From assembly GCA_021432635.1 (NCBI GenBank), contig MU270121.1, positions 1 through 64,000 on the forward strand: DNA of 64,000 nt, read 5' to 3'. The position numbers and the translations under genes were made by a program. This document shows positions 25,059 through 26,465 of the stretch, one piece after another. Numbering within the stretch: position 1 is the first letter of the stretch; each line of letters begins with the position of its first letter. This stretch comes from Thozetella sp. PMI_491. Taxonomy: Eukaryota > Ascomycota > Sordariomycetes > Chaetosphaeriales > Chaetosphaeriaceae. The notes under the pieces are model-generated. The model was not told the DNA's origin and made no database searches. It was given only the letters and a program-made list of their open reading frames with translations.

Positions 25059-25066
25059 TATATAAA
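25059..25066 (+). promoter_or_regulatory. TATA box of the Asp/Gly-Lys repeat gene
   Basis: TATATAAA, 132 bases upstream of the start codon at 25191, a normal spacing for a strongly expressed fungal gene. Confidence 0.55.
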
Positions 25067-25190
25067 GACAGGACTCTCGCGGCCTAAGAGAAGGTTGCTT
25101 CCCTGGATCCAGCTGTTGTCCGAGTCCACCGAGCCTCCCAAGTGCCCACTCTCTGAAAGACACCCTTCCAACTGTTCAACACTGGTCACC

Positions 25191-26465
25191 ATGCAGCCCC
25201 CGACCATCGGTCAGCTTCTTGTGACGGCCCTGCTGGCCTATACGGCCGCAGGCTACCAGATCGCCCCTCAGGCTGGAGGTGCCGCCTTGGCCCGCCGCTA
25301 TGCCGTACGTCGCGCTCACCTTCTATGTCTCGGGACTGTCCAATGCTAACTATGTTTCTAGGGAGCCCTCTTCGCCGTCTCGGCAAACGCCGCGACTATT
25401 CCCGTAAGCTTCTCTCCTTGCTTCTCGTCTGCCCAGCACCACTCCCCTTCATGTCTAACCAATATCTAGGTCACCGCCCGTGACGAGGATGTCACTGAAA
25501 TCGTGGACGCCGGAGACGCTGAAGATTCCGAGGACGCTCGCGGCCCAGGCAAGGGCAAAGGCAAAGGCAGCTTCAATGGTGCCGGCAAGGGCAAGGGCAA
25601 GGGCGGCGGCGGCTTTGGTGGTGCTGCTGGTGGTGGCGGCCCCCCGCCCAGTGGTGGCGCCGGCGGTCCGGGCCCCGGCAAGGGCAAGGGCGCAGGTGGC
25701 TTCGGCGGCGGTAAGGGCAAGGGTAAGGGCAAGCAGCAAAATGCAGAGATCGTTGCCCGCCAGGAGGGTGGTGCCTTTGGAAAGGGCAAGGGCTGGGGCA
25801 ACCCGTGGGGCGATGATGACGACGACGAGGATGCTAATGACGACGAGGGTGCACCGTCGCCTCCCCCTTCCGCCGGCAAGGGCACCGGAAAGGGTGCCGG
25901 TAAGGGAAAGGGCAAGGGGAAGGGGAAGGGGACAGACAACGGACAGGGTCAGACCCCTCCGCCCTCGCCTCCCGTCACCGGAAAGGGCAAGGGAAAGGGC
26001 AAGGGCAACGTGAGCGACGAGGCTCCCGTCGACAAGCGTGACGATGATGACGATGACTTCGAGGATGTCAGCAATATCGCCGCTGACGGTGAGGCCGGTC
26101 CCACCGGCAAGGGCAAGGGAAAGGGCAAGAGCGGTTTCGGTGGTGGTAAGGGTAAGGGTAAGGGCAAGCGCGGCAAAGGCAAGGGCGGGAGAGTGATGGG
26201 TAAGGGCAAGGCCAACGCGGTCGAGGAACCCGTTGAAAAGCGTGACGACGGCGACGACGACTTCGAGGACGTCACCGACATCACAGCCAATGGGGACGCC
26301 GGTCCCACCGGCAAGGGAAAGGGAAAGGGCAAGAGCGGTTTCGGTGGTGGTAAGGGTAAGGGTAAGGGCAAGCGCGGTAAGGGCAAAGGCGGGAGAGTAG
26401 CGGGCGGAAAGGGCAAGGGCAAGGGCAAGCAGCAGAACGTTGTGATTGACGAGGACGAAGAGTGA
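25191..26465 (+). CDS. secreted poly-Asp/(Gly-Lys)n repeat protein with Kex2-like sites
   Basis: Three exons, 25191-25304, 25362-25403 and 25470-26465, encode 383 aa; both introns are phase 0 with clear ends. No family recognised. The N-terminus is signal-peptide-like (GQLLVTALLAYTAAG) and is followed by ARR at 34-36 and a second hydrophobic piece (GALFAVSANAATIP, all of exon 2). Most of the rest alternates acidic blocks (DDDDDEDANDDE; RDDDDDDFEDV) with long runs of Gly-Lys dipeptides. Two nearly identical units of about 70 residues start at KR 241-242 and KR 309-310. Each reads KR-acidic-GPTGKGKGKGKSGFGGGKG, then a further KR at 285-286 or 353-354. These dibasic sites suit Kex2 cleavage in the Golgi, so the product may be released as several peptides. 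The many GGCAAG repeats make the DNA prone to length change. A strong TATA box lies upstream. Possible roles include a matrix or adhesive protein or a cationic peptide precursor; none is shown. Confidence 0.85.
25548..26441 (+). repeat. coding GGCAAG-type minisatellite with two ~200-bp tandem units
   Basis: Repeated six-base GGCAAG-like units encode Gly-Lys. Two larger copies, about 26030-26235 and 26235-26440, are nearly identical in DNA as well as protein. They look like a recent duplication inside the gene. Confidence 0.85.

Follow-up and report, generated by a model that had tools for sequence, protein, structure and literature searches.

Introduction

Fungal Kex2-processed repeat proteins (KEPs) have been collected by pipelines that, as described in PMC6339444 and PMC7329392, look for a signal peptide followed by three or more similar fragments flanked by dibasic sites. 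According to the second of these sources, KEP sequences vary widely, most being unique at the genus level at least, so that an odd KEP is unsurprising in itself; the same source gives Tyr as a requirement of ustiloxin-type RiPP cores. Rep1 of Ustilago maydis is described as a Kex2-processed precursor of surface peptides that form amyloid-like, water-repelling fibrils (PMC8528282). The review that describes it also states that Kex2 substrates preferably carry an aliphatic residue at P4, that Ala is allowed there too, that P2 is variable and that Asp at P3 is unfavourable (PMC8528282).

The gene considered here lies in a stretch of 64,000 nucleotides (the window) from Thozetella sp. PMI_491, and its product looks like an unusual variant of this class of precursors, the unusual part being a charge-balanced block design. 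Like KEPs, the protein has a signal-like start, repeats behind Kex2-type sites and no listed UstYa match on its contig, and its genome holds repeat precursors with (Gly-Lys)n (GK) runs. Unlike KEPs, it has two kinds of KR-bounded fragment that occur in just two copies each, two of its four unit boundaries are monobasic, and its units are long charge-segregated polyampholytes instead of short cores. It resembles Rep1, with which we compare it by description only, in being a repeat precursor proposed to give self-associating surface peptides; whereas Rep1 peptides are water-repelling and amyloid-like, those of the window protein would be hydrophilic and would associate by charge. With the precursors of ustiloxin-type RiPPs it shares repeats, Kex2-type sites and a genome rich in UstYa matches; it differs from them in the lack of a listed UstYa match on the contig and of Tyr in the units.

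Results

Gene model

The window is part of contig C107 (162,594 bp) in a genome of 72.3 Mb and 157 contigs. Splicing of three exons between positions 25191 and 26465 gives a protein of 383 aa without an inner stop, and the three-exon model is consistent throughout. The gene coordinates of the original prediction, made from the letters of the window, were right, and both of the phase-0 introns that it proposed run from GT to AG, with CTAAC as branch site, in our sequence-based model. The features are as follows.

25059..25067, plus strand: TATATAAAG, a putative TATA-box-like element about 125 nt 5' of the ATG
25191..25304, plus strand: exon 1, residues 1-38, with a hydrophobic, signal-peptide-like start (by hydropathy only)
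25305..25361, plus strand: intron 1, 57 nt, phase 0, GT..AG, CTAAC, in-frame stop if retained
25362..25403, plus strand: exon 2, residues 39-52, with a second hydrophobic stretch; its end reads SANA-ATIP
25404..25469, plus strand: intron 2, 66 nt, phase 0, GT..AG, CTAAC, in-frame stop if retained
25470..26465, plus strand: exon 3, residues 53-383 and the stop, containing all repeat units
25482..25760, plus strand: unit 1, residues 57-149, after VTAR56; acidic head and GK runs, apparently a diverged copy of the repeat of units 3 and 4
25761..26039, plus strand: unit 2, residues 150-242, after IVAR149; a short GK stretch, a DDDDDED block, a proline linker and GK runs
26040..26243, plus strand: unit 3, residues 243-310, after VDKR242
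26166..26171, plus strand: KR at residues 285-286, inside a GK run, with Lys at P4; absent from the C6 relative
26244..26462, plus strand: unit 4, residues 311-383, after VEKR310; acidic C-terminus
26370..26375, plus strand: KR at residues 353-354, inside a GK run, with Lys at P4; absent from the C6 relative

The start ATG stands in the context CACCATG. Hydropathy places hydrophobic stretches at about residues 8-20 and 37-46, which makes a signal peptide plausible; residues 1-34 contain no basic residue, and this counts against reading the protein as secreted.

Coding evidence

Units 3 and 4 are 78% identical over 204 nt, ungapped, and match at 46 of 52 residues at the unit starts (alignment count). 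Third positions account for 23 of their 44 nucleotide differences. The ratio of non-synonymous to synonymous changes per site, a measure that ignores gene conversion and multiple hits, is 0.40 for this pair in the frame of the gene and 0.49, 1.01, 1.21, 1.28 and 1.42 in the other five. Taken alone, the unit pair of the window leans weakly toward the coding frame. Coding support is stronger in a relative on contig C6, described below: its units 2 and 3 show seven differences over 141 nt, and six of these are synonymous in the frame of the gene, against at most three in any other. Computed over all unit pairs, the same ratio is 0.26 for the related gene on C49 and 0.13 for that on C45 (10 of its 11 units used). 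Within exon 3 of the window gene, Gly is encoded by GGC 53 times, GGT 33, GGA 11 and GGG 6 times.

Two reverse-strand ORFs were rejected as genes. The longer, of 350 aa, was set aside for the ratio of 1.42 in its own frame and for the position of the gene signals on the plus strand; the other, of 195 aa, has a ratio of 0.49 and was rejected on the plus-strand gene signals together with the C6 gene, where that frame gives 0.50 versus 0.04.

Repeat units and their boundaries

The protein had been predicted to carry two near-identical, KR-headed units. These are present as units 3 and 4, and the count becomes four if monobasic sites are included. When units were shuffled with their GK runs kept, the similarity to unit 4 was reached in 1 of 2000 shuffles for unit 1, 77 of 2000 for unit 2 and none of 2000 for unit 3. 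An earlier control (0/1000 for unit 1, 5/1000 for unit 2) flattered the similarity because it broke up the GK runs, and the GK-keeping control was used in its place. With acidic heads alone, the likeness of unit 1 to unit 4 was reached by 49 of 2000 shuffles and its likeness to unit 3 by 502. Unit 1 thus appears to be an older third copy of the repeat of units 3 and 4, and the resemblance of unit 2 to unit 4 appears weak.

On the spliced protein the KR sites end at residues 242, 286, 310 and 354, the four positions originally given, and RR occupies residues 35-36. Residues 57-383 contain four KR pairs, where shuffled sequences average 1.3 (P about 0.02). The unit boundaries seem to match the pattern aliphatic-x-[A/K]-R better than KR alone, and this pattern delimits the four units: it occurs at VTAR56, IVAR149, VDKR242 and VEKR310, the next residue is always Asp or Gln, and RR36 likewise has an aliphatic residue at P4. 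By the published preference, Asp at P3 makes VDKR242 an unfavourable Kex2 site (PMC8528282). Arg with L, I, V or P at P4, a residue set picked after the sites had been seen, accounts for 5 of 11 Arg in the window protein (P 0.008 versus composition). The figure is 6 of 11 with Ala added (P 0.02) and 4 of 9 from residue 51 on (P 0.087); in the C6 protein after residue 25 it is 4 of 5 (P 0.001), with P ranging from 0.0006 to 0.007 over four variants. The second KR predicted within each GK run is there in both window units; it has no counterpart in the C6 gene, whose GK runs contain no KR. The genome has a single match to a convertase P-domain, at C4:515486-515803.

The criteria of Le Marquer 2019 and Umemura 2020 were applied by hand to fragments grouped by eye. 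Cut at KR and RR, with the C-terminal piece counted, the window protein yields two copies each of two motifs, short of the strict KEP count, and is filed here as KEP-like for that reason. Under a looser rule of our own, in which aliphatic-x-x-R is counted as well, three similar units (1, 3 and 4) stand behind VTAR, VDKR and VEKR. The Kex2-type repeat architecture that was initially proposed is supported by the sites and the repeats, and by a gene of the same design elsewhere in the genome.

Charge pattern

The separation of negative and positive charge that drew attention to this protein is borne out. Its charge segregation delta exceeds that of all 1000 of 1000 shuffles, and kappa for residues 57-383 (61 basic, 53 acidic) is 0.42, where the highest value among 300 shuffles is 0.227; the maximum by which kappa is scaled is our own approximation. 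Single units reach 0.49-0.52. After trimming of trailing basic residues, units 1 to 4 would carry net charges of +2, -2, +1 and +2 on 24-30 charges, and the C6 units, trimmed likewise, +3, +1 and +1. These seven units are nearer neutral than chance, with P 0.003 if they are independent, which copies are not; with four roughly independent units P is 0.055. We regard the charge balance as suggestive.

Neither the window protein nor the C6 protein has KR or aliphatic-x-x-R between acidic head and GK tail, so cutting would yield near-neutral block peptides and not unmasked cations. The suggestion of cationic peptides masked by acidic propeptides accordingly finds no support at these junctions, where the contrary signs are a lone Arg76 in unit 1 (EDAR; P4 Glu, P3 Asp) and, in C6, the KK pairs that open each GK tail. 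One KEP survey counts KK as a cleavage site (PMC6339444). Cuts at KR286 and KR354 would free residues 287-310 (+4 as cut) and 355-383 (+2), with the pieces 243-286 and 311-354 at net -1 and 0.

Relatives in the same genome

The gene at C6:1293879-1294753 shares the design of the window gene. It has a signal-like start, one phase-0 intron and a GK-bearing first part, followed by three units that begin QTDDPEDDDDEDV, QEQEEDDEDVDG and QEQEEDDEDVDD, stand behind LEAR, PEKR and PEKR, respectively, and each run into (GK)n. The similarity of its first unit to unit 4 of the window protein was not reached by any of 2000 shuffles in which the GK runs were kept. In comparisons of acidic heads with C6, the values for units 3 and 4 were reached by 79-161 of 2000 shuffles and those for unit 1 by 745 and 1200. 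Whether the two genes have a common ancestor is not settled by these comparisons.

Signal-like starts and Kex2-type sites were found in four further genes. The gene at C49:193190-194221 can be classed from its sequence as a KEP: it starts MKTSNFLLSLLATSATYVAAAPA and has six parts of the form QNRPPPP..GKGKRR (GNRPPPP in the first), of which the first five are each followed by an acidic spacer of the type TVEDEAVFDELEAR. Here RR and LEAR/LEVR sites do part the cationic polyproline-GKGKG pieces from the acidic spacers. On C45, from position 263846, eleven units of the type HHQGKK..CVAARD(V/I)E..KR stand behind KR without a long GK run, and the gene reads clearly as a KEP. The gene at C21:195961-194804 (minus strand) has three HHQGKGTTTG units behind IKR, VRR and EKR. 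That at about C67:191186-191377 (minus strand) has one HHQGKG unit and then VRR-QNG, joining the HHQGK and QN kinds; DNA farther downstream reads by eye as an NAQGA repeat. The starts of the C21, C45 and C49 genes match one another, and that of C67 is alike by eye; the starts of the window and C6 genes differ from all four.

Of 11 regions with (GGNAAR)4 that were considered, ten were scanned for GK-bearing frames, and the eleventh holds the C6 gene. Other places were rejected. On C22, C27 (both places), C49 at 500 kb and C70, inspection by eye shows GK runs but no repeats bounded by Kex2 sites; those on C51, C83 and C112 hold no convincing gene, and those on C11, C15, C17 and C21 (180 kb) only short frames. 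Six weak matches outside C6 and C107, on C16, C17, C4, C70, C42 and C59 (E 0.001-2.6), are, in the matched part, other charged low-complexity stretches. The frames on C49 at 500 kb and on C70 at 150 kb encode long repeat proteins rich in Ala/Thr or in Pro; these contain GK runs, and their ends read RSLLARLEF and RSLVARLLF.

Neighbouring genes and outside searches

The exon-3 ORF matched no Pfam family at E 0.01. Among 17 unspliced window frames, exon 3 included, pectinesterase, AA9, PIG-V mannosyltransferase, alcohol dehydrogenase, Mmc1, DUF1996 and MnmE scored above the cut-off, and no modification cluster was evident near the gene. Genome-wide, UstYa matches fill at least 149 rows, with exons counted apart and 150 of 203 candidates scored; this looks large for one genome. 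Among the matches listed from those 150 candidates there is none to UstYa/DUF3328 on C107, in agreement with the earlier remark that no such oxidase is visible nearby, and none on C49; the distance to the nearest listed match is about 220 kb for the C6 gene, 511 kb for that on C21, 238 kb for that on C45 and 72 kb for that on C67. Residues 57-383 contain neither Tyr nor Cys, and a cyclic-peptide product is not supported. Ustiloxin-type cyclisation of the window peptides is unlikely, given the absence of a listed UstYa match on the contig and of Tyr from residues 57-383.

A sequence search of the PDB gave no match at E 0.01 among 177,635 distinct sequences. Pattern searches returned 600 stretches in viral contigs and 514 in prokaryote genomes, none confirmed as a relative; as these collections are not meant to hold fungi, such nulls say nothing on fungal orthologues. 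In the open-licence literature, HHQGK appeared only in oak proteomics, GKGKGKGK in no fungal work as judged by title, and secreted fungal repeat polyampholytes in nothing related, again by title; Kex2 together with lysine-rich and glycine-rich proteins gave nothing, and Kex2 with low-complexity tandem repeats only Glomeromycotina surface proteins.

Discussion

We propose, as a tentative reading with a probability of about 0.4, that the window gene encodes block polyampholyte peptides, cut out by Kex2 and balanced in charge, that self-associate outside the cell. The protein, probably a disordered precursor, would be expressed and enter the secretory pathway, where Kex2 in the late Golgi would cut after aliphatic-x-[A/K]-R at residues 56, 149, 242 and 310, removing a propeptide and freeing four peptides of 68-93 residues. 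Trimming of the trailing basic residues would then leave near-neutral block polyampholytes in which acidic stretches are combined with (Gly-Lys)n. Once outside the cell, these may bind one another, and perhaps charged wall polymers, by electrostatics, and the product would be a hydrated coat, glue or coacervate. Association between chains is described as most favourable at kappa 0.1-0.3, near-complete segregation favouring contacts within a chain (PMC7503639). The values of 0.42-0.52 found here lie above that range, a point that weighs to some degree against single units forming coacervates; compact neutral peptides or attachment to the wall would be the alternatives.

One could also envision a secreted protein that stays whole, or is cut once near residue 56, and serves as a multiblock polyampholyte in wall or mucilage. 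That a dibasic site marks no more than two of the four unit boundaries would suit such a polymer, as would the modest excess of KR, the weaker P4 signal once Ala is counted and a repeat number under the published KEP count. However, an aliphatic residue or Pro occupies P4 ahead of every unit in both the window and C6 proteins, and boundaries of this kind, together with GK runs, are found in repeat precursors of this genome; we consider the uncut polymer doubtful. Signalling, pheromone-like or host-interaction peptides, with the GK runs as spacers or carrier, seem unlikely products: no short core is evident in the window units, which are long and low in complexity, even though an HHQGK start recurs in the C45 and C21 genes in the manner of a short core, and known linear KEP products are reported to comprise, among others, a mating factor, effectors, an aerial-hypha factor and a cytolytic toxin (PMC7329392).

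Release of cationic (Gly-Lys)n peptides from acidic masks is what the arrangement of sites in the C49 gene would permit, and in the window protein KR286 and KR354 could set free the two positively charged pieces; Arg76 and the C6 KK pairs, KK being a site in one survey (PMC6339444), are even placed at head-tail junctions. Against this, head and tail are not parted by KR or aliphatic-x-x-R in the window or C6 protein and the pieces 243-286 and 311-354 remain balanced as cut, so that we judge such release quite unlikely. An expansion of low-complexity (GGNAAR)n without selected function would account for the 50 overlapping occurrences of (GGNAAR)4 in the genome, compared with 9 of the reversed pattern, and for its presence in frames of other kinds as well. 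It fits poorly with wobble bases that vary in the Gly codons of exon 3 while GK stays, with the ratio of 0.40 for the window units and with the predominance of synonymous changes in C6, and appears very improbable.

Alongside the reading of the window protein as a source of self-associating peptides, it is tempting to speculate that (Gly-Lys)n is one electrostatic module set on varied Kex2-bounded cores, namely acidic heads in C107 and C6, HHQGK in C21 and C67 and QN-polyproline in C49 and C67, and that a secreted mix of charge-balanced and cationic peptides forms an extracellular coacervate or coat. This wider idea is doubtful at present. For the window peptides themselves, the units are short enough for synthesis, and the idea of self-association is thus directly testable. 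If it is true, convertase-sized, charge-balanced block polyampholytes would be a further way in which coacervates or coats arise outside cells in nature, and fungal peptide precursors would become tied to the physics of charge patterning.
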